Assembly: GCA_029204225.1 (NCBI GenBank)
Contig: CM055111.1
Location: forward strand, 26,321,540 to 26,385,539
Direction of reading: 5' to 3'
Source of the DNA: Diphasiastrum complanatum
Lineage: Eukaryota; Streptophyta; Lycopodiopsida; Lycopodiales; Lycopodiaceae
Length of the DNA stretch: 64,000 nt
The position numbers were made by a program, and so were the translations under genes. The notes under the pieces are model-generated. The model ran no database searches. It saw only the letters and a program-made list of their open reading frames with translations, and was not told the DNA's origin. Positions 3,301-44,286 of the stretch are shown in pieces (positions within the stretch are counted from its first letter, which is position 1; each line of letters begins with the position of its first letter).

Positions 3301-5723
3301 TGATACTCAATTGTACAAGTTTCAGTATGTTGGTAGGATCCATTCTTGTGTGACGAGCTTGATATGCCTCCGAAACCTTTGATCGCAACGACGTAGTTTC
3401 GTAAGGTTCACTGTAAGTGTATGTATGTTTGTTTTTTGTTCAATATGCCAATTTTTGCTTGTAAAAATGATGTGTTTCAAGAACAAACTAATCTTACTAA
3501 GAACCTAGATCATTAGATTAAGGAGGAGTTTATAGATGTGTTCATTGATGAACTTCCATCTGCTTTACCCCCTAAGAGAAATGTGGAACATAAGATTGAG
3601 TTCATCCTTGGATCATTTCTTATGAATAGACCACCTTATAGAATGAGTCTTAATGAGGAGGAAGAGGTAATAAGCATGATCAAAGAATATCCCGCCAAGG
3701 GCAGGTAAGACCTAGCTTCTCTCCCTGGTCCTCTTTGATCATTCTTGTTAAGAAGAAGGATGGGTCTTGGAGGATGTGTGTCGATTATCGAGGCTTGAAC
3801 AAGATAACTCTTAAGCATCGATATTCTATGCCACATATAGACGATCTTTTAGATGCCGTTCATGGTGCTACAATGTTTAGCAAGATTGACAAAGAGTGGT
3901 TACCATCAAGTAAGAGTTTGTGAAGAGGGATGTACATAAGACTGCATTCCCAACTTTTTTTGGACACTATGAATTTTTAGTTAAGTAGAGCCCCTGCAAC
4001 ATTTATGATGTTGATGAACGATTTGTTCTCAAACCATTTATGAGCAAGTTTGTGGTTATTTTTGGTGATGACATACTTGTTTACAGTTGCAGTGATGTCG
4101 CACATGCGCTGTGAACTTTGAGAGAAAACATATTATTTGCTAATAATAAAAAGATAAATATCATATGTCGGTTTTATAGTGTTAGCAGATGGGATAGAAG
4201 TAGATCCTAAGAATGTAGTTGTTCTTCTTGCTTGGCCTATCTGTACCTACAAACTTGACAACAGTAAGAGGCTTTTTTGGATTAGCTGTGTTTTATCGTT
4301 AAAGTGTGAAAAATTATTCACATGTAACTGCACAAGTAAGTATAGCAGTAAAGTTTTGATGCTTTGAAACAAGCTATAGCTGACTTTGTCACATCAAAGA
4401 TTGTTCACTCTCAAAAAGCATTTGTCATAGAAACGGATGTGAGTAATATTGCCTTTGGAACAGTTCTGATGCAAGAGGGTACGCCTGTGGTCTTTGAGAG
4501 CAAACCTTGCACAGAAGAATTATCCAACTCACGAGGAGCTTTATGCTAGAGCTCACGCTTTAAAGGCATGGAGGCATTATTTGTATGGTGCACAATTTTA
4601 TGAGTACATCCACCATGACACTTTGAGATATTTCGGCAACCAGTCAAGACCTAAGAGGTCGTCAAGCCAGGTCACATGGAGATTTGGTTCAAGAAAAGTG
4701 CCAAAAATCATGTGATCAATGCATTATCTTGTATATTGTATTAGATGTCTTTTGTGGTCATTGAAAATGACTGAATTCTTGAGATCAAACAAGCTCAATA
4801 AGAAGATCCTCATCAGAGATGCATATGGAATTTACCCGGAACGCTGTTCAAGAACGTTTTTTTTTTTTTCATTATGGGTCTCAAGAGTAGGAAATTGTGG
4901 GGGATTTGATGGCAGTTTCTTGAAATTTTTTTGAACACTACAGGGATCCTATTTTTGAACACTACAGGGACCCTACTTTTGTTAGATAGTGTTAACTGTA
5001 TTAGTCTAATTTTTGCTTGAAATTGTGCAAATCCTTTCTGCTGGATGTCTGGCAAATTATTTTGAGACTTTGCTTTTTACAACAAAAAAACAGTATATAA
5101 AATTTAATATACTTTGTTTATAATATGTATAACACTCATACCTATTGTTAATGCACATAAAAAAAAAGAATTATAAATGCGTTCCAGACAGTGTTCCGCT
5201 GTCCGGCGTGCTACTGTTCTGGAACAGTATAGGCCCCGGAATGCGTTCCAGGGCAACTGAGATCCTCATTGTAAGGAAATTGTGAGAGAGGCAAATATAG
5301 TTTTTCTATTTCTACCATGTTTCCTGTTTTTACTAGTATTATATGATCTTCATTTTTTGGTCAAGTTCAAGTTTAATCTTTGGTAAACGGTCAACTTTAT
5401 CTCCAGGGAATGAATTTTACACGATGGTTCTTAATTTTTGTACTCGTCAGTTTTGTGTCATTGAAGTTCGACGTGTCATGACCGTTAGATCACTGTATAC
5501 ATTCACAATCTTGTTGTGGACTGCAATGGAGTTCTCAAATTTTTTAACTTGTGGGAACACTTTTGCATAAACAGTTACAGAGTGGGTGACAAGCTGGAAT
5601 GTGATTAGACGTGCCTGTAGAACTTAGCTTCTTCTATTCATATCTGTAACTTACCGAGAGTTTTGTCTGCAGGTATGGCGACATGAACCTGTAGCACAGT
5701 GCATAGTACTTGAATTCAAGTAA
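382..5723 (+). CDS. DCD: Deoxycytidylate (dCMP) deaminase, 3' seven exons (5' end outside window)
   Basis: dCMP deaminase converts dCMP to dUMP, feeding thymidylate synthesis; it is a zinc enzyme, normally hexameric and regulated by dCTP and dTTP. I read seven exons by codon and splice phase: 382-426, 639-697, 815-852, 1048-1111, 1411-1464, 1620-1739 and 5673-5723. All junctions are GT-AG and the phases join without a break. Visible motifs are [24 protein letters not shown], the zinc and catalytic motif HAEVNAIL (exon 4) and the zinc motif PCNEC (exon 5). The protein ends IVLEFK and then TAA. There is no internal stop or frameshift, so the gene looks functional. The N-terminal exons lie outside the window. 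The C-terminal exon is the most diverged part compared with what I know of the family. The last intron is very long and carries retroelement debris. Confidence 0.93.
2341..2530. repeat. Cluster of inverted GGGAAACG/CGTTTCCC repeats
   Basis: About eight copies of GGGAAAC or its complement GTTTCCC are packed into roughly 170 bases. They form successive foldbacks: 2381-2400 is an almost perfect 20-base palindrome, and 2456-2479 is a perfect 24-base palindrome centred on CGCG. I do not recognise the family. It could be the core of a foldback or MITE-type element inside the intron. Confidence 0.7.
3070..4715 (+). mobile_element. Ty3/Gypsy retrotransposon relic (protease, RT, RNase H), decayed
   Basis: The stretch reads as a broken Gypsy pol. 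At about 3180-3350 there is protease-like sequence (FDVLLG followed by WHVARKP). At 3530-3700 comes the pre-RT region [13 protein letters not shown] and NRPPYRMS. At 3735-3890 is the RT palm start, [20 protein letters not shown] with FSKID. Near 4060-4090 is a degraded form of the RT catalytic block (normally FxDDILVYS). At 4364-4700 is the RNase H region ([12 protein letters not shown], then THEELYA). Stops and frame changes interrupt every domain, and no LTRs or integrase were recognised. It lies in sense orientation in the last intron of the dCMP deaminase gene. Confidence 0.88.
4927..4978 (+). repeat. 24-base direct repeat, two units
   Basis: The phrase TTGAACACTACAGGGA starts at 4931 and again at 4955, with flanking bases also matching. 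It sits just 3' of the Gypsy relic. Confidence 0.75.
5187..5262. repeat. Inverted GTTCCAG/CTGGAAC motifs in the intron
   Basis: GCGTTCCAG occurs twice with an opposing CTGGAAC between the copies, giving potential for stem-loops. The stretch is GC-richer than the surrounding intron. No family was recognised. Confidence 0.45.
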
Positions 5724-5998
5724 AGGCATCAATTCAACTGCTAATCTTAAACAGTGCAACATGCAAGAAATCCTTCATCCTGGGCATGGCGTCCAGGAGA
5801 CTAAGTTGAAAGTTTTGAATGACTTTTGTCTCTGAATGTTCTGATTCTTCTTGCAAGGTCTCTTGGGAAGTGCAACGGATGCATGTAATACCATCAAATA
5901 AGTCAATTTTTTTGGATGTTCTTATTTATTAAATTGTTCATGGTCCATAGACCACAACACCCCCCGTCCCCCCCCCCCCAAACACACAAAAACACAGA

Positions 5999-6000
<2 letters not shown>
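5724..6000 (+). other. Probable 3' UTR and downstream sequence of the dCMP deaminase gene
   Basis: This follows the TAA stop at 5721-5723. No strong AATAAA is visible close to the stop; poly(A) signals in plants are often degenerate. A run of twelve C lies at 5968-5979, just before the first CT microsatellite. Confidence 0.45.

Positions 6001-6047
<47 letters not shown>
6001..6047 (+). repeat. (CT)n microsatellite
   Basis: A pure CT dinucleotide run of 47 bases. Any reading frame through it is an artefact of the repeat. Confidence 0.97.
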
Positions 6048-6050
<3 letters not shown>

Positions 6051-7236
6051 CACATGCCAAAAGGTGGGAGCCTGGAGGAAAAGACTTGGACAAATCATAG
6101 GGGGGCTTGTCCACCTGAATTCATTGACTTGGTTTTACTCAAAGCACTGTGGTCAACCTATTTGCCTATAAAGGTTGCACCTAAATTTTATACCATTTAC
6201 CTTATTGAACGGTTTAATACACTAAAAAAGTCCTTTTTTTTTCGTCTTTTCTTTCCAACTGTTTTTTGCTCTCTAATTATTTTTTCAATTTGGAATCGCA
6301 ATCTATTACTAATTTTTGCACAATCTAATATGACAAATGGCCCAATTAACATCCAGTTCTATCCACTAGAAAGTTTGATCTCGTTCGAACTCTTCGCAAT
6401 TGGCAAATGATTGCCCAAAAGTGCGGTTTTCAAAAACTACTAATCCTTCGTTGCTAATAGAATATATATATATATGTGATGAATTTGTAAGTGGCATTAT
6501 ATCTATTGATGTTGTAGGGGCTACTTTTATACTGAGAGGAGTGACACTAATTATTATCGAATACCCTTTGCCTACCAATAATAAGTGTTGTACCAATGAC
6601 TAAACATGATGACATTCCTGAGTCATTGTTGTTCAACCCAGGGTATCCCGACCAACCAAATGATACAAGATTTTTCACATCATAGATAATGAATTGTGAG
6701 CTTTTTGTAAATATTTAAATCACATCATATTTTGCATGGATGTAGATGCTACAATATCAATAAACATAGTATCAATTAATTTTGGACTTTTTAAAAAAAT
6801 TTTGGACTATTTTTAGGATGTGGCAGCTCCACCCACCATGGCGGGTGGAGACTCCCAAGAGAAAGGTAAAAAAAAAGAAAACGAATTTTTTCTTCTCTAA
6901 AAAATTCATTTTTTTTGTTCTTTTCGTTTTTATATTTATTTATTTATTTTATTATGGGAGGCTCTACTCATCACGGTGGGTGGACACCTCCCACACCTTT
7001 AACATATATATCATAATATATACAACAATTTTTGTGTACACCCATGCATATGCATGAGGTGAGAGGATGTATGGGACGTGCACATGGCATACATCCTCTT
7101 TTGACACACTTTGTAATTGTAAGTTTCTGTTTGTATGGGGAGGGTGCATTCTCCCATATATATGTACATTTAGCCTATAAAAAATTCTCTCCTTCCCTCA
7201 TAAAAGTTTTTGTTTTTGTTTTGTTTTTTTTTTTTT

Positions 7237-7237
<1 letters not shown>
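6048..7237. other. AT-rich intergenic sequence, no gene recognised
   Basis: No coding signal is visible. A short foldback, CTCCACCC with the matching GGGTGGAG, lies at 6827-6850. A related GTGGGTGGACACCTCCCAC phrase lies near 6977-6996, so a small inverted-repeat element may sit here. T-rich and A-rich tracts are frequent. Confidence 0.5.

Positions 7238-7270
<33 letters not shown>
7238..7270 (+). repeat. (CT)n then (CA)n microsatellite
   Basis: About 15 bases of CT are followed by about 18 bases of CA. This marks the left border of the telomere-like repeat block. Confidence 0.95.
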
Positions 7271-8448
7271 TAAGGGGCAACAACTAAGGACCAAAGATTA
7301 AGGATTAAGGGTAAAGGGCCAAGAGCCAAGGGTTAAGGGTTAAGGTCCAAGGGAAAGAGGTTTAGGGCCAACGGGCAATGGCTAAGGGCTAAGGGCCAAG
7401 GACCAAGGGCTAAAGGCCAAAAGTTAAGAGTTAAGAGCCGAAGGCCCCGGGCCAGGGGCCAAGGGTTAAGGCCCAAGGGCCAGGTGCTATGGGCCAATGG
7501 TGAAAGGCCAAGTGTCTAGGGCCAAGGCCAAGGGTTTAGGGTTTAGGGTCAGGAACCAAGGGTTAAGATCCAAGGGCCAAGGGTTAAAGACTAAGAGACA
7601 AGGGCTAAGGATGAAGGGTGAATGGCCAATGGTAAAGGACAAATGACAAGGGACAAGGGAGAATGATTTAGGGTTTAGGGTTTAGGGCTAGGGGTTTATG
7701 GTTTAGGGCTAAGGGTTTAGGGTTTAAGATTTAGAATTTAGAATTTAGAATTTAGGGGTAAGGGCTTAGATTAAGGGCCATGGGTTTAGGATTTAGGATT
7801 TAGGGCTTAAGGCTAAGTGCTAAGGACTTAGGGTTTAAGGCTAAGGGTGAAGGATTTATGATTTAGGAATTAGGATTTAGGGTTTAGAATTTAGGGCTAA
7901 GGGGGTTTAGGGTTTAGGGTTAAGGGCCAAGGGTTTAGGATTTAGATTTTAGGGTTTAGGGTTTAGGGCTTAGGGCTTACAATTTAGGGCTAAAGCCTTC
8001 GGGTTTAGGATTTAAGGTTTAGGGTTTAGGGTTTAGGGCTAAGAGTTAAGGGTTAAGGGTTAGGGCTAAGGATTTAGGGTTTAGGGTTCAGGGTAAAAGA
8101 CTAAAGGACAAGGATTAAGGACCAAGGGTTAAGGGTTAAGGGCCAAGGGCCAAGATAGAAGGACAAAGGGCCAAGGGTTAAGGACCAAGGGCTAGGCGCT
8201 AAGGGCCAAGAGAGAGAAAGGAGATAAGGACCAAGGGGTAAGAGCGAGGGGCCAAGAGATAAGGACCAAGGATTAAGGGTCATGGGCCAAGATAGAAGGA
8301 CCAAGGGCCAAGACAAAGGGGCAAGGATTAAGGACCAAGGGCCGAGATAAGGAGATAGGACTAAGGGTTAAGGGCCAAGGGCCAAGATACAAGGACCAAG
8401 AGCCAAGACGAAGGGCCAAGGGTTAAGGACGAAGGGCTAAGGGCTAAG
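7271..8448 (+). repeat. Interstitial telomere-like repeat block 1 (TTTAGGG and variants)
   Basis: The block is made of seven-base units ending in AGGG or AAGGG. The centre, about 7640-8095, is rich in exact TTTAGGG, the Arabidopsis-type plant telomere unit. The flanks (7271-7640 and 8096-8448) consist of variants such as CCAAGGG, CTAAGGG, TTAAGGG and ACAAGGG. The G-rich strand is the plus strand throughout. Specific strings recur in block 2, for example GAGAGAAAGGAGATAAGG. Open frames through it on the minus strand are artefacts of the periodicity. Confidence 0.93.
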
Positions 8449-10039: not shown

Positions 10040-11759
10040 AAGTTCCAATGGCCAAGGGTCACAGGTTGAGGACTAAGGGACAAGAACTAAGGGCTAAGGA
10101 CCAAGGACTAAGGGCTAAGGACAACGGTTAAGGACCAAGGGTTAAGAGCGAAGGGCTAACAACTAAGGCTAAGGGCCAAGGGTTAAGGACTAAGAGCTAA
10201 GCGCTAAGGGATAAGAGCTAAGGGCCAATGGTCAAGGATCAAGGGCTAAGGGCCAAGCATTAAGGACCAAGGGTTAAGGGCCAAGGGCCAAGACGAAGGG
10301 CCAAGAGCTAAGGGCCAAGAGCGAAGGGCTAAGACTTAAGTTTCAATGGCCAAGGACCAAGCTGGGTTGAGGACTAAGGGACAAAAGCTAAGGACTAAGG
10401 ACTAAGGGCTAGGAGAGAGAGAGAGAGGAGATAAGGACTAAGAGTTAAGAGTGAAGGGCCAAGAGTTCAATTTTATTGGCCAAGGGCCAAGAGTTGAGGA
10501 CTAAGGGACTAGAGCTAGGGGCTAAGGGCCAAGAGTTAAGGACCAAGGGTTAAGAGCGAAGGGCTAAGAGTTAAGGTCCAAGGGTTTAGGGCCAAGGACC
10601 AAGAGTTAAGGACCGAGGGCTAAAGTTAAGGTCCAAGAACCAAGGATTTAAGGTTTATGGTTTAAAGTTTAGTATTTAGGGATTAGGTTTAAAGGCCAAG
10701 GGCTAAGAGTTAAGGTCCAAGGATCAATGATAAAGGGTTTATGGTTTAGGGTTTAGGATTTAGGGTTTAGGTTTAGAGCTAGGGGTTCAGGGTTTAGGAT
10801 TTAGGGCTAAGGGCTTAGGGTTAATTGTTTAGCGTTTAGGGCCAAGAGTTTAGAGTTTAGGGTTTAGGGCTTAGGGCTTAGGATTTAGGGCTAAGGGATT
10901 AGGGATTAGGGTTTAGGCTTTAGGCTTTAGGATTTATGGCTAAGGGCTTAGGTTTAAGATTTAGGGTTTAGGGTTTAGGGTTTAGGATTTAGGGCTAAGG
11001 GCTTAGGGTTTAGGATTTAGGGCTAAGGGCTTAGGGTTTAGGGCCAAGGGTTTAGGGTTTAGCGTTTAGGATTAGGGCTAAGCTTTTACGATTTAGGATT
11101 TAGGGTTTAGGGTTAAGGGCCAAGGGCTAAGAGTTTAGGTCCACCAAGGATCAACGGTTTAGGGCTAAGGGTTAAAGGCCAAGGGTTAAGGACCAACGAT
11201 TAAGGGTTAAGGGCCAAGGGCGAAGCACTAAGGGCCAATGGTGAAAGGCCAAGGGCTAGGACGAAGGACGAAAGGCCAAAGTTCAAGGACTAAGGGCAAA
11301 GGATTAAAGGACAAAGATTAAAGACCAAGGGTTAAGGGCCAAGATAGACGGACGAAGGGCTAAGGGCTAAGGGCCAAGAGAGAGAAAGGAGATAAGGACC
11401 AATGGGTAAGTGCAAGGGGCCATGAGTTAAGTTTCAGTGGCCAAGGCCCAAGGGAGAACGTAAGGGACAAGAGCTAAGGGCTAAGGGCCAAGGACCAAGG
11501 GATAAGGGCCAAAGATTAAGGACCAAGGGTTAAGTGCAAAGGGCTAAGCGTTAATGTCCAAGGACCAAGGTCTAAGGGCTAAGGGATAAGAGCTAAGGGC
11601 CAAGAGTCAAGGATAAATGGCTAAGGGCCAAGGATTAAAGGACAAGGGTTAAGGACCAAGGGTTAAGGGCCAAGGGAGAAGGACGAAGGGCCAAGAGCTA
11701 AGGGTCAAGGTTTAAGAGTTAAGGTCCAAGGGCCAAAGGTCTAAGGGTTAAGGGCCAAG

Positions 11760-11762
<3 letters not shown>
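10038..11762 (+). repeat. Interstitial telomere-like repeat block 2
   Basis: The composition matches block 1: a TTTAGGG-rich centre (about 10640-11130) flanked by CCAAGGG, CTAAGGG and TTAAGGG variants, with the G-rich strand again on plus. Strings such as GGGCCAATGGTGAAAGGCCA (near 7490 and near 11232) and AGAGAGAGAAAGGAGATAAG (8211 and 11371) occur in both blocks in similar relative places. This suggests that a larger unit was duplicated. Confidence 0.92.
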
Positions 11763-13641: not shown

Positions 13642-14258
13642 TCGATTACAGGAAAAGCAGACCGTCGTTGGGTCAGGTTTGGAATCGAAGTTTGTTCTCC
13701 GTTCGTGTCATTGACAAGTAGAGATCCATTACAGCCCTGCAGTAAAGTATGAGCAGAAACAGTAGTAAGCCACGCACACTTACAACAAGCCACCAATACT
13801 ATGATCAGCACAATAATGCGCGTCGAGTTTCAAGCTATTTCATTCTGCCTTTAACTTCAGATATGAGAAACGTAAGCGAAGACTTGACCCCAACTGAAAT
13901 CCTCCCTGAACAAAGCAGTCATGGAAGAGTAGACGTATAACACCTGCTGCCTGTGATACATTTGAGCTTAGAAAGGATTGCATGCTTGTTTTAACAGTGC
14001 TCTCTGCGCTTGGACAAGGCCCTGACCTTGAATCAGTAGCACTTTTGTGACACAACTCACTGCTATCATGATACTTATGACCTTCATGAATCCGACCTGA
14101 TATTGAATATTGTAGTGTGAACACGGGGAAGGGTCCTGCTCCGCCCCAGGGCGCACAGTCTTTCGCGGGCGGAAGGCCCGAGGCTTCCCTTCCGTGAATT
14201 CTGTTTTTACATTTTTTTTTCCTTTTTTTTTTTGACATAATTTTTCTTTTACACGCAC
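13642..14258 (-). pseudogene. Truncated class III peroxidase pseudogene (inverted copy of the 44-kb gene)
   Basis: The minus strand matches the 5' half of the peroxidase gene at 44287: the signal-peptide region MKVISIMIAVSCVTKVL, then TVKTSMQSFLSSNVSQAAG and RLLFHDCFVQ, and after the intron GCNGSLLVNDTNGEQTSIPN. Similarity stops at about 13642 in mid exon 2. Damage includes a deletion between the signal-peptide region and PSAES, and the first-intron donor changed from GT to GG. This copy keeps the distal Arg of RLLFHDC, which the 44-kb copy has lost. Class III peroxidases are secreted haem enzymes of cell wall and stress metabolism; this fragment cannot make one. Confidence 0.88.
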
Positions 14259-14365
14259 CTTTCGGGCGTAAGGTGCATGTAAAAAAAAGTAAATTTTTTT
14301 ACGTGCACCTTCCGGTGTTCGGAAGGTGCCTGTAAAAAAATTTTGTCAAAAAAAAATTTGCCCCA
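14221..14365. mobile_element. Small element with two tandem hairpins, MITE-like
   Basis: Hairpin 1 spans 14247-14284: TTTTACA and GCACCTT pair with AAGGTGC and TGTAAAA. Hairpin 2 spans 14294-14340: TTTTTTTAC and GCACCTTCC pair with GGAAGGTGC and GTAAAAAAA. Outer A/T-rich flanks contain TTGACA on the left and TGTCAA on the right, suggesting terminal inverted repeats. It lies in the upstream flank of the truncated peroxidase, and no counterpart was seen at the other copy. GC-rich sequence at 14140-14200 adjoins it. Confidence 0.55.
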
Positions 14366-14821: not shown

Positions 14822-15643
14822 CTACCTATCTGCCAAGTGTGACACTATGAAGCTACACCTCCAAAGCTCCACTGGTGACTCCATGCATGGTCTTCTAAGG
14901 CTTCTAGAAGGTCGCTTGACTCTGAGATGATCCAAACTCCTCTTGACCACACTTCCACAAGGAATAGATTCAAACTTGAAAAGATTCCCACATCTAGTCC
15001 CTTTCGCTACCACTTCACCATCCCTCTTAACCAAGCAAGCATCTTTTCCAAAGTCAACTTGGAAACCAACAGCTAGCATTTTGCCAATTCTAATGAGATT
15101 CGTAGTGAGATTAGGCACAAAAATCACATCAATAAGAGTCATAGTGGATTCATTACCATTTGGTACACTACCAATTCCTTCTATTTTGCATTTACCACCA
15201 ATAGGAATGAAAATAAACTTTCTAGATGTGCGCCTACTTGGACCAGCAAAAGTTTGTTTAATGGAATGAGTTGCAAGAATTTGTTTTAAAATTGTAATAG
15301 TTGATTTTTGAAGACGCCTAGTCCTTGTGAGCTTAAAATCATACACAAGAATATCCACTTCCGCGAGTTGCAACACACTTGTATGTGGGCTATTTTTTGA
15401 CTTCTGCTTCTTGGACGTGCCCTTTCCGGTACGCAACATCCATAATGAGTATTTCCCTCTATAAGCATCAGCATGCTCTGTTTGAAACCAATGTACAATA
15501 ATCAAAGTTATTAGATTTGATCTGACATCTCTAGACATAGACAACACCTTGGCAATCCAAAATGGATGTTGCAATGGATTGTCAGATGCAAAGTGTTGAA
15601 ATATAATGAACCTTCTTTCAAATCTTGGGGATTCCCATGCCAT
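14822..15643 (-). pseudogene. Chimeric 273-codon ORF: unknown domain joined to Copia protease/GAG-pre-integrase
   Basis: The frame is open for 273 codons. Residues 1 to about 125 are an unrecognised domain containing ESPRFERRFIIFQHF, HPFWIAKVL, IIVHWFQTE, YRGKYSLWM, a Lys/Ser-rich linker and DILVYDFKLTRTRRLQKS. From about residue 140 it turns into Copia pol: IGGKCKIEGIGSVP, TLIDVIFVPNLTTNLIRIGK and FGKDACLVKRDGEVVAKGTR, the protease C-terminal and GAG-pre-integrase region. The protease active site (DSGAT-type) is missing. The last 45 residues are unassigned. The fusion may be an insertion junction or a retroelement that captured a host sequence. Confidence 0.6.
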
Positions 15644-15729
15644 GTTTCCTCCATTTGATTTCTTCTTGTTGTAGATCTTCTTGAGCCAAGATATATTTTT
15701 CTACTCTCAGAAGGAGGAATGATATATTC

Positions 15730-16454
15730 TCAAGGCACATGAGGAATGATCGAGTTGTCAATATCTTTTGTAGCTGATACATTTGGCCATACAAACTCGG
15801 CAGACAAAAATTCTATCCAATCACTTGCATATTTCTTTGCTTTGTCAAGAAGAATTCTTTGCTCTCGTACACAAACCATATAATCTCTCGAATGGACCTC
15901 AATCTCTTTTTTCCCAACCGGAATAGACAATTCGATATACAACAACTACAATGCAATGTTTTATTTAGATGTTGATCGGAAATCAAAAAAGTTTTTCTCT
16001 CTCGGCCAAAAGCTCTTCTTCTACAATAGAAAGGGAATTACGAAGCAAATGAAAATTCAGGTGACCTTGATTCCAAATTCCTGTCAATATGATTATCTAA
16101 TGAAACTCTTGGACTTCGCACAAAATCCAGTTGTTTGAGATTCATTTTGTTTTTGAATTGTGTTCGCACTCTCGGATGGAGAAAAAATTCTATATGATGG
16201 AGAGGCAGACACAAAATCTCGAGAAATGGAATGACTGACCTCACAATTGTCAACATTTTTAGAGCATTGCTCATAAGAGAAAAATCTGAAATACCCTCAA
16301 CTGAAAGATGATTCTCACTAGACACATCAATCAAGCCTTCTATTGAAACATGGCTATCATTTTGAGAACTAGGCAAACCATCAATGGAGATATGGGTATC
16401 AGTAGACAAAGAAGATAATTTGCTGGACTGTGACAAAATGAGCCATTCCAACAT
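15730..16454 (-). pseudogene. Unrecognised coding-like sequence upstream of the chimeric ORF
   Basis: Two open minus-strand stretches lie in line with the chimeric ORF. The first, 16038-16454, has the repeated phrases THISIDGLPSSQ, SHVSIEGLIDVSS and HLSVEGISDFS, about 16 residues apart. The second, 15730-15945, contains KKYASDWIEFLSAEFVWPN. They could be exons or broken pieces of the same gene as the N-terminal domain of the chimera. I cannot assign a function. Confidence 0.35.
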
Positions 16455-17160
16455 AAAAAGAAATGCCTCTAACCTTGTTTACTAAGCCTAATAGAACATA
16501 CTGAGGACCCTTAACAAGATGTAGAATGACGTGCAACCCTTGTATAGAATGACGTGCACCCCTTTATAAGAAATGTAATGATTATGTTGTCTTAAAATTT
16601 TTAACAAAACTTTAAACATTGATGACCAAAAATACTTGGTCGTCAAAGATTTCTAGAATTTTACGACATCAATACGAAATATATTTATTACGGTTACTTT
16701 TAAAAAGTAATCATGAATTCAAAACCTATATATACATGTGTTAAACTCATTTGTCGTCCTCACTTTTTGAGGATTTGGATCGTGCGTAAGTTCTTGCTGA
16801 TTTATTTCTATTGCGATTGGGACGATTTTCACAGTGCTTGCACGACGACTCAAACTGATTTATGCTTTCCTTCAAAAAAGGTGCAATTTTTGAATGGAAT
16901 ATTTAGATGCTTTTTTTATTCTTTTTGAAAGATTGATAACATTTAGTAATAAATATTTACTAAATTACTTGGTAAAGATTTAATTTATATTCTTGTTTTA
17001 AAAAGTTTTCTTTAGTAATCTCTTTATCAAAAAATTTGATACGATGTATCGAGTTTACTGTTAAATAATCCAATTTTTATCTTATAAAAACTATCTTTAA
17101 CTTTATTTTAATTCGATGTTATTTATCTTATAAAAACTATCTTTAACTTTAACATAACAA
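16455..17160. other. AT-rich intergenic sequence with short direct repeats
   Basis: GAATGACGTGCA occurs twice near 16526 and 16548. The phrase ATCTTATAAAAACTATCTTT occurs twice near 17080 and 17125. No gene was recognised. Confidence 0.5.
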
Positions 17161-17310
17161 GATTTAACAGAAATTTCGATACGCTGTATCGAAATTTTCG
17201 TTAAGGCATGCCCTAAATTTCTGTTAAGGCATGCCCTAAACTTAACATAAAAGTTTTAACAGAAATTTCGATACGCCGTATCGAAGAAATTTCTGTAAGG
17301 CATGCAAGAA
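17161..17310. repeat. Repeated palindromes with core TTCGATAC-GTATCGAA
   Basis: At 17172-17196, AATTTCGATAC pairs with GTATCGAAATT around a three-base loop. A second copy lies at 17264-17290, and a weaker one near 17037-17052. GTTAAGGCATGCCCTAAA follows the first copy and is repeated. A degraded relative appears near 18325. No known element was recognised. Confidence 0.6.
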
Positions 17311-17329
17311 ATTGTCAAATAGCCGACGG

Positions 17330-17460
17330 ACGCTCTGCTCTCGATCGCTCTACTCACGATACGGACTTTCTGCTCCCGATTGCTCTTTGAATCCGATCGC
17401 TCTGCTCCTGATCGCTCTTTGAATCGCTCTGCTCCGTATTGCTCTTTGAATCCCGACACC
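17330..17460 (+). repeat. Imperfect minisatellite of CGCTCTGCTC and GCTCTTTGAAT phrases
   Basis: About four imperfect units of roughly 25-33 bases alternate CGCTCTGCTC with GATTGCTCTTTGAATC-like strings. Minus-strand frames through it (SGAERF-type repeats) reflect the repeat, not a recognised protein. Confidence 0.6.
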
Positions 17461-17999
17461 TGCTTGGCCTAACGATCCACGTTTTGCTTTGCCACATCTA
17501 CGACTTCTACTCACAAATAGAAGAAGAAGTTGAAGGTGATGAACCAAATGAATTATGAGAGATTGCGATAGAAGGTGACACAATCTGTGCAACGGCAGTC
17601 TTCGTATCTACACATCCGGCAGCCTGAACAGAGACATTATTCTCAGATGGGTTGAGAAATGATCTATTTGTGGCTGGACCAGCAGGCGCTTGAACAATAA
17701 CAGCCTTTCTGTGGGGCATCCCTGTACCATATAGAATACGGAAGTCAATTAGTACTTATAGAATCATATAATAAATCATGACTACTGCAGTTAGTAGTAT
17801 ACAAGGTGGGTAAAGGTTCAAAATTTTCAACACAATATGAAGAAATAGGAACATCTTGCTCATTCTTTTCTTCCTACTGGTGTAGACTCTTCAAGTATGC
17901 CTATGTTTGCGATCTTCCCAATTGCTCTATCTTGTTTATTTCCGTAATGTGAAACCGAACTGGTTGAGTCGGGTTGAGTCGGCAACCTGGCGAACCTAG
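17461..17999. other. Unassigned sequence, one short minus-strand open frame
   Basis: An open frame on the minus strand (17507-17719) starts MPHRKAVIVQAPAG and is rich in Ser, Ala and Asn; I do not recognise it. Otherwise nothing is seen. Confidence 0.35.
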
Positions 18000-18101
18000 C
18001 TGGGGGAGTCAATAGTATAAACCAATGGATTCTTCAACATGTGTGTAGGGCTGGGGGAGTCAATAGTATAAACCAATGGATTCTTCAACATGTGTGTAGG
18101 G
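18000..18101 (+). repeat. Perfect 51-base tandem duplication
   Basis: The unit 18000-18050, starting CTGGGGGAGTCAATAGTATA, is repeated exactly at 18051-18101. Identity over both units implies a recent event. Confidence 0.95.
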
Positions 18102-18544
18102 GTCTGTTGATGATGTGTCATGCAGCCATTAGTTCACATTAAACTTTCTAAGAATTTAGTCCCAGCAACTGAGGTGTTCTGCCTCATAGTCAGGTCCCAT
18201 TTATCAGAGATTAAGGATAGGTGAGAACGATGTATTAGAGATTTTGATAATCGTTCATTATGTTTTAAAAAGTTTTAACATAACACATTCCCTAAAAGGA
18301 CAATTAGCCCTTTGAGATATTACCTCTCGATACACAGTATTGAAAGTTATGATAAACATATGAACATTATGAAAATTATGAGTTATTAAGGATAGGTTAG
18401 AAAGATTGCTTCTCGTGTTAAAAGTACACATCTTTGAATCTATTTTTCGCATAGAGTAAGTCAGTATAACAATTTTCTATGTTTGATTAGGTGTTTTGCA
18501 CTCCATCTATGCTACTTTTTGAATATCAATGATGCATACAAGTA
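18102..18544. other. AT-rich sequence upstream of the methyltransferase-like relic
   Basis: No gene was recognised. A degraded copy of the TTCGATAC palindrome (CTCGATACACAGTATTGAAA) lies near 18326. Confidence 0.45.
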
Positions 18545-20715
18545 ACACCAAAAACGCATCCGATTCAAGTTTGGTGGCTCTGACGAGGATGACTCTCGGA
18601 CTCCTCCAAAGAAATCTCAATAAAAAAAACCTGCTGATCCTCCTAGAGTTTCTAAACCTGTGAACTCGAAGTGCCTTAATTATGAGTGGGCCGTCAAATA
18701 TAATCATGAGGATGGAATGAAGCTATACTTGTGCCGAAAGCCGAGCACAGAGTTAGATCTGAAGGAGTCTAAATGTTGTGGCCCTATCACATGGGTGGAT
18801 TATGAAGGAGAGGACAATCTGGATACTCTTATTTTGACAGTCGAGGATCCAAATAATCAGAAGCAATCAAACCTTTTGTTTGCAGTCAATGAGAAGCTTT
18901 GTCGTATTGATTTATGTTCTCCATCTATACTTTCACGACATTTATCCAACTCGAATAACATGATTGTTACCCTTGGTCCATTTGTGCAAAAAGAAGTACC
19001 AGTGGAGCCTCCTCCTACATATGATGGACAGATTACAAGGTTTTCGTAGGCTTAACGACCGAAGAAGGGAAATTGCTAGCCTGGGACCACAATAATGATA
19101 ATGATTATCGAGCAAAGATGTCTTTTATTGAAAAAATAAGATTTTTCAATCATGAATTTGAGGACCATCTTGTTAAGCACGAGAAGCTTGATATAAATCT
19201 CAGGCGCACATGTTTGCTTGAAGTCGGAGTTTTTATTGGTGAGTCTGAGAGGTCAGACGGATTAAGACGTTTTGATCTGTTATTTCAACTGGCCTTCCAC
19301 AGTGGAAAGATCTGGGAGCTTGAAGATGGAGAATAAGGAGCTAAAAGGCCAAAAGACTGGTAGAATAAAAGATGAAATTGCAGGTGGAAAAAAATCAAAA
19401 AATAAAATAAAAGATTGGCTTGTGGAGGAGCTGTCGGAGGATATGAAAGGGCATCTTTGGAGATCCTTGCAGGGAGTCAAAGACGAGGTGGTACTCACCT
19501 CTATTTTGACTTGAGTTATTGAGAAGATGCTATCTCTAGAAGAAATGGTCAAAGAATTTTCCAAGTACGTATATTGCTGATAAGTGTGCCTTAATTTAAT
19601 TTAAGTGTGCTTAGTTTTTCATTTAATCATGTGCCTTACATTTTTTTTTTGCAGTCATAAAATCTTCATGAGGATACAAGAAGTCACGGTGCGGAGGCTG
19701 GCTTGTAGAATTTGGGAGGAAGTCATAACAAACTATCCGCTTTTAAGCTGTCATGCTGCCCTTTCTGAATATTTCTTGTCGTTTAAAACTTTTAAGTTGA
19801 TACTTATTTTCATTTCCTTATTTGTTTTACTTGATGGTTTGATTTATAATCTAAAGCGATGATTTATGTTTTTTACAGCCAAAGCGAGTGAAGGGTGTGG
19901 ATACAGTTGATTGCCCACCCAATTTTTTAATGCATATAGAGAGAGCGAAACAAGAGCGCACAAGAATTGAAATCTGCAGCAACATGCCTTCTCTTTCGGA
20001 AGAATTTAAGACCTTTATGAATAATGATCCCACTATTAACCCCGTGTATTATAAAGTTTTTGTTGGGGATGTACAATAACTGATATCAATTTTTCCCCGA
20101 AAGGATTACAGCCTGGCCATTGCTGATATTCCGTATGGGTTTCGCTTGTTGAATTCTATTTATGATGAGAAAGCATTTACCTTCAAACAGATATCGCAGA
20201 TGATTGCAGATTTGAAAGCTTTGACCACAGCTCAAATGTGGAGATTTATTGTATTTCATAGTGCTGCACAAACAGCTTCGGTGCTTGCATCATTAAGAGA
20301 GCACACTCATGGAGCTGAAAATATGATGTGGTGAGATGTGGTTCATAAAATAAATATATTTGCTCACAAATATTTTATTAGTCTTATAGATTAAGAGAAA
20401 ATATTTGTTTATAAAAATTATTTTCTGCAGGCACAAAACGAATGTTAGCTTTGCTCCAAGGTCCAGATTATTAAGCTCTTTTGAAATGATTAGCATTGGG
20501 TATTTTGATAGCCTTGAGTTAAGACTCATTGCAATGACGACTGCAGCAATGTGTTCAGTTTTTCTGCCGTGACACGTAAGTTGAGGCATATTGAGGTGTC
20601 TCATGCCCTCGTCAACTTTTACCAAAAGCCTCAACGATTAAGAAACGAGCTGATTACATTGTTTTCAATTTAGGATAAATGGTTATTTGATCTGTTTGCT
20701 AGAACAAGTATTTAA
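18545..20715 (+). pseudogene. Decayed multi-exon gene with a beta-class DNA amino-methyltransferase-like domain
   Basis: The C-terminal part has the order of beta-class N6-adenine/N4-cytosine methyltransferases: YYKVFVGDV, then DYSLAIADIPYGF (motif IV, normally DPPYG-like; 20104-20140), MWRFIVFHSAAQT, the strand MMW-HKTNVSF across an intron, SSFEMISIGYF, then NFYQKPQRLRNELITLFS and the degraded motif I DKWLFDLFARTS (about 20672-20707; normally DLFxGTG). Introns 19565-19654 and 20331-20430 are GT-AG and keep codon phase; another acceptor lies at 19878. The N-terminal part (18545-19540) has a basic start, KRIRFKFGGSDEDDSR, and unrecognised sequence such as YKVFVGLTTEEGKLLAWDHN. Several stops and at least three frameshifts make it a relic. 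The enzyme family methylates DNA bases; any role here is unknown. It could derive from a host gene or from a transposon-borne methyltransferase. Confidence 0.72.
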
Positions 20716-22519: not shown

Positions 22520-23268
22520 TAACTAAGATGACATCCTGGCTAACGAATATCTTCGATTGATAGGATCGAACAACTTGTAGGAGGCTTGATCTGGAGTAGT
22601 GTAGCTAATGGAAATACATTTGATACTTTGGAAGTTGAGCTTCTTCCTGAGATCATGAGGAATCTGCGCATAAGCAGTACATACAAAAACTTGTAAGTTT
22701 GATAAAGAATGTTTGGTGAAATAGCTTCAGCCCTGAAGAACTTCGGAAGTGACGCATGTGATATCATGCACTTTGCTGATTCGACTAAGGTTCTGTTCTT
22801 TCTCTCAGCAAGACCATTTGATTAAGGCGAATAAAAGGTAATGTATTGTTGTTCAATGTCATTGTTAAGGCAATACTCCTTGAATTTGGTGGAGATGTAT
22901 TCTCCCCTGTTGTCAGACTCAATGCTTTGATTCGTTTTCCAATTTGATTTTCTACATGCTCTTTGAATTGTCTGAACTTGATAAAAGCCTCCGATTTTTT
23001 GCTTAATGAAGTAAACATCTTTTCTTCGAGAGAATTTGTCAATAAAGGTAATAAAATACTTTCCATCTAGCAATGATGGAGTTTGCATAGGTCCACATAT
23101 ATCTGAATGAACAACATCTAATAGACCTTTTGTTGCATGCCTATGACTCAATCTAAAAGGAATCCTAGTCTGCTTTCCAAGAATGCAGCTATGGCAGACA
23201 GGGAGATCGATTGTCTGGACATGTTTGAAATAGATGCATAATTCAAGTGTCCTAAGCGATGATGTCAT
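22520..23268 (-). pseudogene. Copia element A integrase, core and C-terminal region
   Basis: The minus strand reads LPVCHSCILGKQTRIPFRLS, LLDVVHSDICGPMQTPS, KYFITFIDKFSRRKDVYF, IESDNRGEYISTKFKEY, then after a stop NGLAERKNRTL, FFRAEAISPNILYQ and a C-terminal region in a shifted frame. The catalytic D,D-35-E core is recognisable: VHSDICGPMQ, SDNRGEY, with the Glu expected near the YITFYSP region lost in the break. Several stops make it inactive. Confidence 0.85.
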
Positions 23269-23848
23269 AGTAATGCTTTATTGACAAGAACAGAGGTTTT
23301 CAAGTCTTGATTAGAACAAGAATAACATTGTGCCAATCCATATAAGTATCCATGCCTCTTGCTGAGTGCAAGGATCGTATTACTCCTATCAATAATTTTG
23401 CATTGATCAGATTCAAACTCCACCTTATGACCTAAATCTATAATTCTATTTAGTGATAACATATTTGTAGAGAGTTTAGGAACATACAAAACTTTTGACA
23501 ATAGTTTGAATTGATCATGCTAGAACCTTAATCTTACAATACCTTCACCTTCGATAGTGTGAGTGCTATCATCACCAAGATGAACATACTTCTTTGTGTT
23601 GTAAGGCGTATAGGAATAGAAAATCTCATGACGATTGGTCATATGTTGAGTAGCTCCAGAATCCAGAAACCACGAATCATCCGAATTCGCATTTTTTTTT
23701 CTTTGACCATCAAAGTGGCTTCGTCCATTTCGACTTCAAAAGTTGTAACTATATTTGCTTGTTGATCAGGTTGCTTGGCTGCATTATTCGCTTTGAGAAT
23801 TTGACAGTCCTGGATCTCATGGTTATTGCGCTTGCAATAACTGCAAAA
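23016..23848 (-). repeat. Tandem unit 1 of the Copia A internal triplication (833 bases)
   Basis: The unit carries zinc-knuckle, protease and GAG-pre-integrase to integrase N-terminus. The zinc knuckle reads CSYCKRNNHEIQDC (C-x2-C-x4-H-x4-C). Compared with the other units it lacks about 37 bases in the stretch encoding LALDLDYPSGKV. Its borders lie at a shared AACATCTT...TTCGA phrase. Confidence 0.88.
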
Positions 23849-24718
23849 CATCTTTTCTTCGAGAGAATTTGTCAACAAAGGTAATAAAATACTTTGCATC
23901 TAGCAATGATGGAGTTTGCATAGGTCCACATATATCTGAATGAACAACATCTAATAGACCTTTTGTTGCATGCCTATGACTCAATCTAAAAGGAATCCTA
24001 GTATGCTTTCCAAGAATGCAGCTATGGCAGACAAGGAGATCGACTTTGCCAGAAGGATAGTCGAGATCAAGTGCTAGGGATTGTTTGGACATGTTTGAAA
24101 TAGATGCATAATTCAAGTGTCCTGAACGATGAGGTCATAGTAATGCTTTATTGACAAGAACAGAGGTTTTCAAGTCTTGATTAGACAAGAATAACATTGT
24201 GCCAATCCATATAAGTATCCATGCCTCTTGCCGAGTGCAAGGATCGTATTACTCCTATCGATAATTTTGCATTGATCAGATTCAAACTCCACCTTATGAC
24301 CTAAATCTATAATTCTATTTACTGATAACATATTTGTAGAGAGTTTAGGAACATACAAAACTTTTGACAATAGTTTGAATTGATCATGCTAGCACCTTAA
24401 TCTTACATTACCTTCACCTTCGATAGTGTGAGTGCTATCGTCACCAAGATGAACATACTTCTTTGTGCTGTAAGGTGTATAGGAATAGAAAATCTCATGA
24501 TGACTGGTCATATGTTGAGTAGCTCTAGAATCCAGAAACCACGAATCATCCGAATTCACATTTTTTTTTTCTTTGACCATCAAAGTGGCTTCGTCCATTT
24601 CGACTTCAAAAGTTGTAACTATATTTGTTTGTTGATCAGGTTACTTGGCTGCATTATTCGCTTTGAGAATTTGACAGTCCTGGATCTCATGGTTATTGCG
24701 CTTGCAGTACCTGCAAAA
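23849..24718 (-). repeat. Tandem unit 2 of the Copia A internal triplication (870 bases)
   Basis: The content is the same as unit 1: WFLDSRATQHMTS (protease active-site region, DSG-type changed to DSR), KYVHLGDDSTHTIEGEG, LSKVLYVPKLSTNMLSVNRI, then VCHSCILGK and DKFSRRKDVLQ. At the border the integrase frame runs straight into the next zinc-knuckle segment. Confidence 0.88.
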
Positions 24719-25582
24719 CATCTTTTCTTCGAGAGAATTTGTCAACAAAGGTAATAAAATACTTTGCATCTAGCAATGATGGAGTTTGCATAGGTCCACA
24801 TGTATCTGAATGAACAACATCTAATAGACCTTTTGTTGCATGCTTATGACTCAATGTAAAAGGAATCATAGTCTGCTTTCCAAGAATGCAGCTATGGCAG
24901 ACAGAGAGATTGACTTTGCCAGAAGGATAGTCGAGATCAAGTGCTAGGGATTGTCTGGACATGTTTGAAATAGATGCATAATTCAAGTGTCCTAAGCGAT
25001 GATGTCATAGTAATGCTTTATTGACAAGAACAGAGATTTTCAAGTCTTGATTAGAACAAGAATAACATTGTGCCAATCCATATAAGTATCCATGCCTCTT
25101 GCCGAGTGCAAGGATCGTATTACTCCTATCGATAATTTTGCTTTGATCAGATTCAAACTCCACCTGACCTAAATCTGTAATTCAATTTACTGATAGCATA
25201 TTTGTAGAGAGTTTAGGAACATACAAAACTTTTGACAATAGTTTGAATTGATCATGTTGGAATCTTAATCTTACAATACCTTCACCTTCGATAGTGTGAG
25301 TGCTATCGTCACCAAGATGAACATACTTCTGTGCTGTAAGGCATATAGGAATAGAAAATCTCACGACAATTGGTCATATGTTGAGTAGCTCCAGAATCCA
25401 AAAACCATGAATCATCTGAATTTGCATTTTTTCTTCTTTGACCATCAAAGTGGCTTCGTCCATTTCGACTTCAAAAGTTGTAACTATATTTGCTTGTTGA
25501 TCAGGTTGCTTGGCTGCATTATTCGCTTTGAGAATTTGACAGTCTTGGATCTCATGGTTATTGTGTTTGCAATAACTGAAAA
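24719..25582 (-). repeat. Tandem unit 3 of the Copia A internal triplication (about 864 bases)
   Basis: The third copy lies nearest to gag. It has the same domain order; small differences include a shortened KKYVHLG region and DLGHK lost by a short deletion near 25165. The downstream zinc knuckle has lost its first Cys (FFSYCKHNNHEIQDC). Confidence 0.86.
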
Positions 25583-25599
25583 ACATCTTCTTCTTCGAT

Positions 25600-25745
25600 G
25601 AATGTAGATTCGATGCAAACTGCTTGGAGCCTTTCGGCTTCTATTGTGCTTGCAATAGCTGAAAAACATCTTCTTCTATAATGTTCTTGACTTTTAGTCT
25701 GTTTTTGATTCGATGCAAATTGCTTGGAGCCTTTCGGCTTCTATC
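25600..25745 (-). repeat. 100-base tandem duplication at the gag/zinc-knuckle boundary
   Basis: The phrase GATTCGATGCAAA with following TGCTTGGAGCCTTTCGGCTT begins at 25607 and again at 25707. It lies immediately beside the larger triplication. Confidence 0.85.
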
Positions 25746-26335
25746 GTGTTGAGCCCTTGTTGACATATAGAGCATGAGAAGAAGAGGTAGATGGAGCGTC
25801 TTGACTTCTTCGATTATCTTCTTGCAACATCATAGTAATAACTCTGGCAAGAGTTGAATCTGAGTGTGTCATGATGATCATCACCCAGTTCTCATTTGTA
25901 GAGGGCAAACTTGAAAGCAATGTCATAATTGCCTCTTGATCATCTATGACTGATCCAACAGCGGCCATCTGTTGCAAGAGATTCTTAAACTGGTTAATAT
26001 GATTATGAAGAGAATTCAACATCTTGAGTGTGAAGAATTTCCTTCGAAGATGTAACTTGGTAGTTACGTCTCTCACATCATATAGTGAGCTCAAGATGTC
26101 CCAAACTTTTTTCGAAGTTTTGGCTTCAGCTACGTGAGTATTTGATATATCGAGGATAATAAGCGCGAAAGCTTTACCATCCTTCAATTTCCACTTTGAG
26201 TCGTCTATGTCATCTTTAGGCTTCACTTCAATACCTGTAACAACATCCCACAACTCGTTAGCGACTAGCAAGGTCTTCATCTTAAATTTTCATAAATGAG
26301 AATTGGATCAATTCAGCTTGTCAGCGATGAGGCAA
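25741..26335 (-). pseudogene. Copia element A gag
   Basis: The minus strand is open for 179 codons from 26280: MKTLLVANELWDVVTG, AFALIILDISNTHVAEAKTS, KKVWDILSSLYDVRD and LRRKFFTLKMLNSLHNHINQ, a Copia gag (UBN2-type). The Met at 26280 is internal; a degraded NYSHWKFKM-like start with one stop lies upstream. Gag forms the virus-like particle of the retrotransposon. The downstream part reaches the zinc knuckle after the 100-base duplication. Confidence 0.85.
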
Positions 26336-26506
26336 CTTTACTTTGAGAATCTATCTGAAACTTTAGTCTGTTGACGTTAAGAGAGATACCGTGCTGTGGA
26401 AATCAATTCTCTGATAACGAAACAAATTGATTCGAACTGAAGAATAATTGATATTCCGAAAGATATCAAGTATAAGAACTTGCGCTCTGATATAGTATTA
26501 GGCCTT

Positions 26507-26518
26507 GCTCTGATACCA
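26507..26518 (-). other. Primer binding site (initiator-Met tRNA) of Copia element A
   Basis: The minus strand reads TGGTATCAGAGC, directly adjacent to the LTR end at 26519. Confidence 0.9.
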
Positions 26519-27589
<1,071 letters not shown>

Positions 27590-27839
27590 ATACCAAGGTC
27601 CCATGTGTTGTCCTATTGTAGTCAAGACAATAAAAGGCCTTGTCCTATTGTAACCTATCCTAGTTGTACCTTGTAGCTTACCTACTAGAGTTTACCCATA
27701 AAACCTACAAAAGTCTATGGAAATGGGTCCTACAACTAGCCTGAACTCAAGATCACTCTGTGTTAACCCAAGGTAAAGGTGCCACATAGGATTGATTAGC
27801 ACTAAACTAATCACAATTAAAAAACTTGTCTAGGCAAGG

Positions 27840-29565
27840 AAGAGGCCCTTTTTGAGTCCAGAAGCGGTCCTAATGACTTTCAAAGTCTAAAGACCATCCT
27901 GATCGGTTATACTTCTGCTGACAACACCTACAAGCTGTATAATCCCGATACCCAATAGATTTTATTAGTAGAGATACAGTCTTTATGGAGGATTGGTTCA
28001 TCGACTTCAAGGGCAAAGGTAAAGTTCCATGCGAATCTTTGACACCTGCCACTGTCATGACAATTCGAGCCTCGAGCTCCATCATGCCGATAGTCGACCA
28101 ACTACTTGACAACGAATCAGAGAAAAACATTGATGTTACTCAATGACAAAGGAATGGATCATCACCCAACGCGACCTCCAAGAAAATCGAACCGAGTGTG
28201 CACACAACCACTAAGTATATTCCTGAGTTAGCTTGTCTTTTAATTCAGGAACTTGACTACAATAGAAGAGGCACTTAGCCAATCAGACTTTGATCTCCAG
28301 AGAGAAGCATGGATAGAGAGTATCTCTGTCTGATCAAGAACCAAACATGGTCATTGGTCGAACTACCTGTCGGCGACAATCTTATCAATTGCAAATGGGT
28401 CTTCAAGATCAAGTATAAAGTTGACGGGAGTATTGACCAAAGGAAGGCCCAACTAGTAGCCAGAAGATTTTTTCAGATCCCAAACATTGACTACAATGAG
28501 ACTTTCAATCCAGCAGTCAACCATTTATTGATCCGAGTCCTCTTATCATTTATTGTTGAGGCCAATCTCGAAGTACATCAACTCGATGTACAAACAATTT
28601 ATCTGAATGGAGTTATAGAAGAAGATATTTACATGATACCACCTGAGGGATACGTTCTCGAAGGTATGAAAAATCATGTCCGTAAACTCCCCAAGGCATT
28701 TTATGGCTTGAAACAATCAACAAGAGCTTGGTTTCCAAGGATCAACACATTTCTCATCCAACATGGTTTCAAACTAAGCACTGCTGATTCTAATGTCTAT
28801 TTCAAGTTTGTGCAACATTCCTTCATTATTATCACTTTGTATGTCGATGATGCATTGCTTTTCAGCAACAGTACTGATCATGTGAAGGATGCTACTATTG
28901 TCATTTGAATTTGACATGACCGATCTGGGTGAGGCTCACTATTGTCTAGGAATTCAAATCCACGGAGATAGAGAGAGACAATTGATTTACCTTACTCAAC
29001 AAAGATATCTTCATAATACTCTTATTCGATATAATCTGATTAATTGAAAAGAAGCTCGCTCACCAATGGATCCAGGCTTGTGACTATCAAAGGACCAATG
29101 TCCTCAGACCAAGCATGAAAAGGAGCAAATGAGAGAGTATCTGTATCAGTCAATACTCGACTCTCTCATGTATGCAATAGTCTGTACAAGAGCTGGCATC
29201 ACTTTTGCAGTTAGCTCATTAAGCCAATTCATGGCTAATCCTGGCATCATACATTGGAAGGCTCTTATCAGAGTCATGAGATACATTCAAGCTAAAATGG
29301 ATCTGTGCATCTGCCATGGAGAAGTCGACAACGACAATCTTCATCAACTAAGTGGATATTCATATGTGAGTTGGGGAGGAGATGTAGATACTTGTAAGTT
29401 CACATCTGGAATTAGATTTTTCTTCAAAAACGGTCCTATGTCTTGGAACAGTTGTAAGCAGACCTCCATGCCCTCTCATCCACAGAAGCATAATACATTC
29501 ATGCTTCTCAAGTTATTAAGGAAGCAATTTGGTTGAGAAATTTACTATCAGATATTAGTCTAAAT
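27840..29565 (+). mobile_element. Ty1/Copia element C: integrase end, RT and RNase H relic
   Basis: The plus strand starts with the integrase C-terminus (KTILIGYTSADNTYKLYNP near 27886). RT follows at 28309-28908: QTWSLVELP, INCKWVFKIKYKVDGSIDQR, KAQLVARRF, VHQLDVQTIYLNG, FYGLKQSTRAWF and the catalytic TLYVDDALLF. After a frameshift near 28900 come TDLGEAHYCLGIQI and RNase H (YVSWGGDVDTCKFTSG, MSWNSCKQTS). In RNase H the expected SSTEAEY block is damaged. Gag, protease and most of integrase are missing on the left, where the LTR of element A ends. Confidence 0.92.
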
Positions 29566-43990: not shown

Positions 43991-44286
43991 TAGAAGCTAA
44001 TGCAGTCGTGTTCCCAGTACTACGATATTCAATATAAGCCATAGCAAATCCTTCGGAAAGTCTGTGGTCTATTAGTTTCAGATCAAGAATTTGTAAGCTG
44101 GAAAGAAAGGAGGGACGAATCTTGTTCTCTTTAAGAACACGGAATCTCAGTCCAACGCAGTACAGCATTCAATTTCATACAGCGTACTCGGCTTAACGAC
44201 ATACATTGACATTAGATCGAATTGAGACTGCAATTCTGTCTTTCCCGCTACAAGTGAGCTGCCAGATCACAATTCTAATTTCTGAC
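43991..44286 (+). promoter_or_regulatory. Putative promoter and 5' region of the peroxidase gene
   Basis: No clear TATA box could be singled out. The frame upstream of the chosen start (from 44206) is open but lacks a signal-peptide-like beginning. Confidence 0.3.

Follow-up and report, generated by a model that had tools for sequence, protein, structure and literature searches.

The window, i.e. the whole stretch of 64,000 nucleotides of Diphasiastrum complanatum DNA that was analysed (GCA_029204225.1, contig CM055111.1, positions 26,321,540 to 26,385,539), contains the remains of two divergently oriented genes, named gene 1 and gene 2 in the following. Positions 18546-20710 represent a decayed gene 2 of five exons, the last of which is gone; its C-terminal half, as judged from the sequence, most resembles a beta-class methyltransferase of the CcrM type. 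On the opposite strand, two pieces of gene 1 are preserved. The features are (window positions):

15251..15723, minus strand: remnant of the C-terminal part of gene 1, corresponding to residues about 670-823 (four query copies, tblastn E 7.0e-27 to 6.8e-25)
15843..16139, minus strand: remnant of the N-terminal part of gene 1 (four query copies, tblastn E 9.7e-5 to 4.7e-4)
16140..18545, no strand: spacer between the divergent relics; terminal inverted repeats like those of the Azolla-associated copies were not recognised in the window
18546..19031, plus strand: gene 2 exon 1, N-terminal domain; stop at 18621; residues 54-160 of the related gene 2 in L094 match 18678-19007 (tblastn E 4.9e-6)
19025..19333, plus strand: gene 2, middle of exon 1 after a change of frame, KVFVGLTTEEGKLLAWDHNNDNDYR; residues 361-462 of L094 are 56% identical
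19329..19564, plus strand: gene 2, last part of exon 1 with a stop at 19512 (tblastn)
19565..19654, plus strand: gene 2 intron 1, GT..AG; position matched in six related copies
19655..19793, plus strand: gene 2 exon 2, end approximate, following donor degenerate (tblastn and alignment to related copies)
19794..19878, plus strand: gene 2 intron 2; clear acceptor (AG, 19877-19878), degenerate donor, approximate start
19879..20330, plus strand: gene 2 exon 3 with motif IV, DIPYGF (20125-20142), and strand FIVFHS; stop at 20077 (local profile E 3.4e-4; PADLOC MTase_II E 7.1e-4)
20331..20430, plus strand: gene 2 intron 3, GT..AG (alignment to related copies)
20431..20710, plus strand: gene 2 exon 4 with HKTN, SSFEMIS, QKPQRLRNELI (about 20623-20655) and the motif I relic DLFARTS; stop at 20671
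20711, plus strand: donor of gene 2 intron 4 (alignment to related copies)

This copy is dead. Gene 2 is interrupted by stops at 19512, 20077 and 20671 (and at 18621, if the preceding frame is part of the gene) and by frameshifts near 19025-19031, 19327-19333 and 20530-20580. About 200 residues are missing between 19007 and 19025, motif I is broken (DLFARTS instead of the DLFSGTG of its relatives), and no last exon was found in the window; six of nine related loci possess it. The gene 1 relic lacks residues about 125-637, which include its DUF7869 domain. All peptides quoted in the first-pass annotation of this region are present in the order it had given. The two introns which it had described, 19565-19654 and 20331-20430, begin with GT and end with AG, and six related copies have introns aligned to them; it overlooked a further intron (about 19794-19878) as well as the donor, at 20711, of another. 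Its repeated YKVFVG phrase is not a true repeat; three spliced relatives have KIYVGL at one of the places and [GA]VF[CS]GD at the other.

Elsewhere in the window, positions 7667-8448 and 10069-11762 consist of long degenerate arrays of 7-bp units (TTTAGGG, AGGGCTA), which we take to be close to the plant telomere repeat. We presume that the segments 13840-14298 (minus strand), 44197-44550 and 45251-45748 (both plus strand) are exons of class III peroxidases, as which they read, and that 22822-29536 and 57238-57783 contain several fragments of Ty1/copia-like gag, integrase and reverse transcriptase genes.

Searched on their own, the window peptides gave no methyltransferase match in Pfam, NCBIfam or PHROGs, and the methyltransferase half had no match in protein searches at E-values up to 10. 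The PADLOC model of type II methyltransferases (MTase_II) matched the window peptide with E 7.1e-4; among ten controls (one reversed and nine shuffled sequences), one shuffle got E 0.004 with a different family. Six local methyltransferase profiles were run against 3002 sequences, including 3000 shuffles; the window peptide came out on top with three of them (E 0.0094, 0.019, and 3.4e-4) and not with the remaining three. One of the top-ranking profiles was built from 18 beta-class enzymes of phages and bacteria; because of their long inserts, Cruim, Jour55 and Scavito did not enter the local profiles. None of ten single methyltransferases placed the window peptide above all shuffles; in hhalign with one sequence, each of three profiles scored one shuffle out of 200 higher. 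Due to the misses of the database profiles on the one hand, and the PADLOC match and the three top-ranking local profiles on the other, the signal of the window peptide alone is better than chance and not decisive.

The decisive evidence comes from relatives, a spliced example of which matches the window with E 3.3e-102 (tblastn). A protein search with the N-terminal half of the window gene found one relative, P0001 (E 6.9e-62), whose open frame stops exactly where the window has intron 1. Scanning GTDB contigs with the shared region yielded nine loci (L093 to L101), all in one metagenome-assembled genome (MAG) labelled uncultured Trichormus. Trichormus azollae is a named cyanobacterial species and the symbiont of Azolla ferns. 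At least nine contigs (CAKZGI01) of this cyanobacterial MAG, which belongs to the GTDB species set, carry the plant-type gene family with introns, and L093 additionally contains a Ty3/gypsy element. Because of the spliced genes and the gypsy element, these contigs are most likely contaminating DNA of the host fern; this assignment to Azolla is based on the MAG label, the introns and the gypsy element rather than on an Azolla assembly.

The pieces of the window gene recur in the same order in the related loci (tblastn). All five exons are present in six of the nine, with a shortened exon 1 in L100. In L093, L094 and L095, splicing gives about 960 residues without a stop, the expected ATG being ATA in L095; the gene is broken in L098, L099 and L100. 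The splicing set omitted L096, L097 and L101, as their later exons were unmatched or outside the DNA covered. Six related copies have introns at places equivalent to those of the window, which bears out the earlier conclusion that this was once a spliced eukaryotic gene; the GT-AG ends of the related copies are partly given by construction, because the splice-site patterns used contain GT or AG.

All three spliced relatives match PF01555, the Pfam family N6_N4_Mtase (best E 4.7e-17; 60.8 bits for L093 at a cut-off of 26.7), and the NCBIfam CcrM model (best E 7.6e-15, far under its equivalog cut-off). A profile of the three aligned with CcrM (PDB 6pbd) over positions 656-886 (E 6.3e-7), the two running in parallel from motif IV through to motif I. 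The profile search that the first-pass annotation had proposed is thus positive for the relatives and negative for the window peptides alone. Spliced relatives and window share the order motif IV, KP/LI region, motif I. The motifs whose conservation in paralogues the same annotation had named as critical are indeed retained: DIPYGF occurs in eight of nine related loci, the ninth (L101) having no match to that exon, and PY[QK]KPQRLI in six of nine. The usual catalytic tetrapeptide of beta-class methyltransferases is [DNS]PP[YFW]; in the window and these eight loci, motif IV reads DIPY and not the usual DPPY, i.e. the second position differs. In summary, sequence comparison supports the assignment of the C-terminal half of gene 2 to the beta-class N6/N4 amino-methyltransferases, as first proposed, with CcrM as the closest type. 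Gene 2 shares with CcrM and N6_N4_Mtase the motif order IV to I, the KP/LI helix and the motif I DLFSGTG; it differs from CcrM in the DIPY motif, about 650 additional N-terminal residues, eukaryotic introns and the location on a mobile element.

For the N-terminus of gene 2, there is a PCNA-like hint with E 0.15. Two structure predictions gave no confident model, with mean pLDDT values of 33 and 35. The middle part resembles ParB in one short stretch, VIGGSH. Its hits to Pfam DUF6551 (E 0.011), which we take to be related to ParB, and to NCBIfam TIGR00180 (E 0.16) stay under the respective cut-offs. A ParB-like domain is not supported: compared with 12 phage ParB-methylase sequences, the middle part did not score above shuffles (ParB-methylase loci had been thinned, 8 of 80 being retained). 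The ParB-methylase fusions described in the relevant passages of PMC5512222 are similar in that an N-terminal part is joined to an adenine methylase and in the VIGGSH stretch; membership in ParB is unsupported.

An all-against-all comparison of the loci revealed a second conserved block upstream of gene 2 in L093, L096, L097, L099 and L100. This is gene 1, which lies beside gene 2 in divergent orientation in these five of the nine Azolla-associated loci; the remaining four extend only a little beyond gene 2 on its upstream side. Gene 1 is a single open frame of about 860-880 residues, free of stops in four of the five loci and frameshifted in L100. Both copies of its product that were compared with profiles have a DUF7869 domain (E 1.7e-52 and 3.7e-51). 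Since no sequence relative of this protein was found in the PDB (best E 0.91), we can only infer that it acts as a transposase. Asp 350, 431, and 473 (P0003 numbering) are among the residues invariant in four aligned copies and may contribute to this role. Both genes are under purifying selection in the Azolla-associated copies: dN/dS is 0.068-0.120 for gene 1 (six pairs) and 0.056 for gene 2 (L093/L094; dS not computable in the other two of three pairs), with synonymous sites near or at saturation in these comparisons. Between the divergent genes, tandem and inverted repeats that are alike in the different copies occupy 4081-4332 in L093 (here of the GTCGATGC type), 4227-5010 in L096 and 3643-4144 in L097; similar repeats are found upstream of gene 2 in L094 (12-178). 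A regulatory region or a methylation target is possible.

The ends of the element became accessible in L093, where the end sequence was read from the junctions with the gypsy gene and then sought at other ends. Inverted repeats of about 33 bp were identified at 10 ends in seven of the nine loci. An end model derived from eight of these recovered the two ends outside the training set (L097, E 1.3e-8; L095, E 3e-8), and in all three elements compared, the left and right repeat outscored 1000 random pairs (places chosen by a 9-base anchor). In L093, L097, L099 and L100, homology between copies begins at the left repeat or at most about 11 bases from it. Both ends are seen in three copies, L093, L099 and L100, with 7.7, 7.8 and 6.0 kb between the inverted repeats. 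In L093, the element extends from 698 to 8421 within a Ty3/gypsy pol gene and has TGTT, a perfect 4-bp duplication, on either side; joining the flanks with one TGTT gave a continuous pol frame of 360 codons across the site. An uninterrupted copy of this gypsy site was absent among the 101 loci examined. L099 and L100 possess inverted repeats at both ends, yet no clear duplication, so that it is seen in one of three two-ended elements. The end model recognised no inverted repeat in the window (best E 0.49) and nothing convincing in eight loci of the same Diphasiastrum genome, L102 to L109, with flanks of about 1.5 kb (best E 0.39). The search for terminal repeats and target-site duplications suggested in the first-pass annotation was successful for the Azolla-associated copies, with the duplication seen in L093; the search for terminal repeats gave nothing convincing for those eight loci.

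The density of GANTC, the site of CcrM, gave no support for it as a target: the three complete elements contain 19, 29 and 13 sites, fewer than the shuffle means of 32.7, 34.9 and 25.4. Independently of density, all six right ends inspected (L093, L094, L095, L098, L099, L100) have a GANTC at a distance of 51-52 bases, as GAATC five times and GAGTC once; none of four left ends has one within 76 bases.

The linked divergent DUF7869 gene, the inverted repeats, the clean gypsy insertion with its 4-bp duplication and the selection on the genes lead us to conclude that the window preserves the remains of a DNA transposon, probably Sola-like, that encoded a DNA methyltransferase of its own. We are highly confident in this transposon reading and in the anatomy given above, according to which the window feature represents one half of a two-gene transposon that occurs dispersed and is dead in this copy. 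The complete element would consist of the single-exon DUF7869 gene (about 860-880 residues) and the divergent five-exon gene of about 960 residues with a CcrM-like end.

Copies are numerous in the 1.74-Gb D. complanatum genome: there are at least 69 matches for gene 1 (52 of 5843 candidates scored) and at least 79 exon-level matches for gene 2 (48 of 5021 candidates scored). Among the matches listed, 58 of the 69 and 63 of the 79, respectively, contain stops. From the gene 1 matches, 15 stretches of ten kilobases were hand-picked on the side expected for gene 2, some of which look near-duplicate (L111, L112). Seven contain pieces of gene 2 (E 1e-4 or better), in each case divergent to gene 1; in the other eight adjoining 10-kb stretches, gene 2 was not found. 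Two of the pairs, L115 (C17:893000-902999) and L119 (C17:195000-204999), have gene 1 frames of 616 and 614 residues without stops in the matched pieces; their methyltransferase parts show 36-40% identity to that of L094, and they are perhaps a second, diverged subfamily. The eight stretches without gene 2 would fit a methyltransferase that is a captured passenger with no role in transposition or upkeep of the element. This we regard as unlikely, because constraint is similar on both genes and the gene pair is found in the Azolla-associated contigs as well as in the genome of the window.

The earlier alternative to a transposon-borne enzyme was an anciently acquired host gene family. In this case, genes of bacterial origin would act in fern chromatin, and the window would contain a pseudogene with transposons merely nearby. 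In favour of such a family are purifying selection and the division into five exons by introns whose positions are conserved. However, the DUF7869 gene adjoins gene 2 in constant divergent orientation at several loci, inverted repeats enclose both genes, the insertion into the gypsy gene is clean and many copies are dispersed; of the two origins proposed at first, the transposon therefore stands, and the host gene family is very improbable. An insertion of a giant virus or phage is highly improbable: this class of methyltransferase is common in phages (1756 phage records match YhdJ of E. coli), but four scans of IMG/VR confirmed no relative, none of P0001 was confirmed in phage and plasmid records, the genes have introns, and two conserved blocks are seen between the repeats.

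For the transposon with its own methyltransferase, the following mechanism is conceivable. The DUF7869 protein would be a cut-and-paste transposase, probably of the Sola superfamily, and the methyltransferase would methylate the DNA of the element itself, at N6 of adenine (or N4 of cytosine). Such self-methylation may keep the element expressed despite host silencing, or may time its transposition. We put forward this purpose, marking of the element's own DNA against silencing or for timing, tentatively and with slightly less than even confidence. Sola is probably the superfamily to be considered first, judged from size, duplication and inverted repeats and not from transposase homology. The passages on Sola in PMC10741241 describe a DDD transposase, 4-bp target duplications, a size of mostly 2-9 kb and inverted repeats of 11-1124 bp, with moss among the hosts. 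The element agrees with this description in the inverted repeats of about 33 bp and the length of 6.0-7.8 kb, and one of the three two-ended copies also in the 4-bp duplication. In addition, according to the part of PMC6786969 dealing with them, SOLA elements are substantially more numerous in Azolla than in Salvinia, and these descriptions together are why Sola seems likeliest. Unlike the element presented here, Sola is not linked to a methyltransferase gene in those passages of PMC10741241.

The nearest precedent found for a transposon with a base-modifying enzyme are the fungal DNA transposons encoding TET/JBP dioxygenases that are described in passages of PMC12730594. In both cases, a transposase gene and a gene for a DNA-base-modifying enzyme occur together; in fungi it is an oxidase acting on methylated bases, whereas the plant element presumably encodes a methylating enzyme. 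Eukaryotic amino-methyltransferases to which gene 2 can be likened by description are the 4mC enzyme of Marchantia, called bacterial in origin, and N4CMT of bdelloids (both in PMC8885841). The corresponding passages of PMC8885841 depict the Marchantia enzyme as being without extra N- or C-terminal domains and do not call either enzyme transposon-borne. Among the matches listed from titles and abstract openings of the open-licence literature, no report of an element like the one described here was found.

The use of N6-methyladenine or N4-methylcytosine in plant DNA is disputed. A methyltransferase that is under selection and encoded by an element offers a concrete enzyme as well as concrete candidate target DNAs, and its location on the element is a reason why 6mA and 4mC marks could be patchy between plants. 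If our reading is true, a further kind of base-modifying gene on eukaryotic DNA transposons would stand beside the fungal TET/JBP genes, namely a transposon-encoded writer that mirrors the TET erasers on fungal transposons. Non-seed plants may then carry a lineage of DNA transposons which writes a bacterial-type mark on its own copies and in this way escapes or times silencing, a serious possibility that at present falls somewhat short of being probable.
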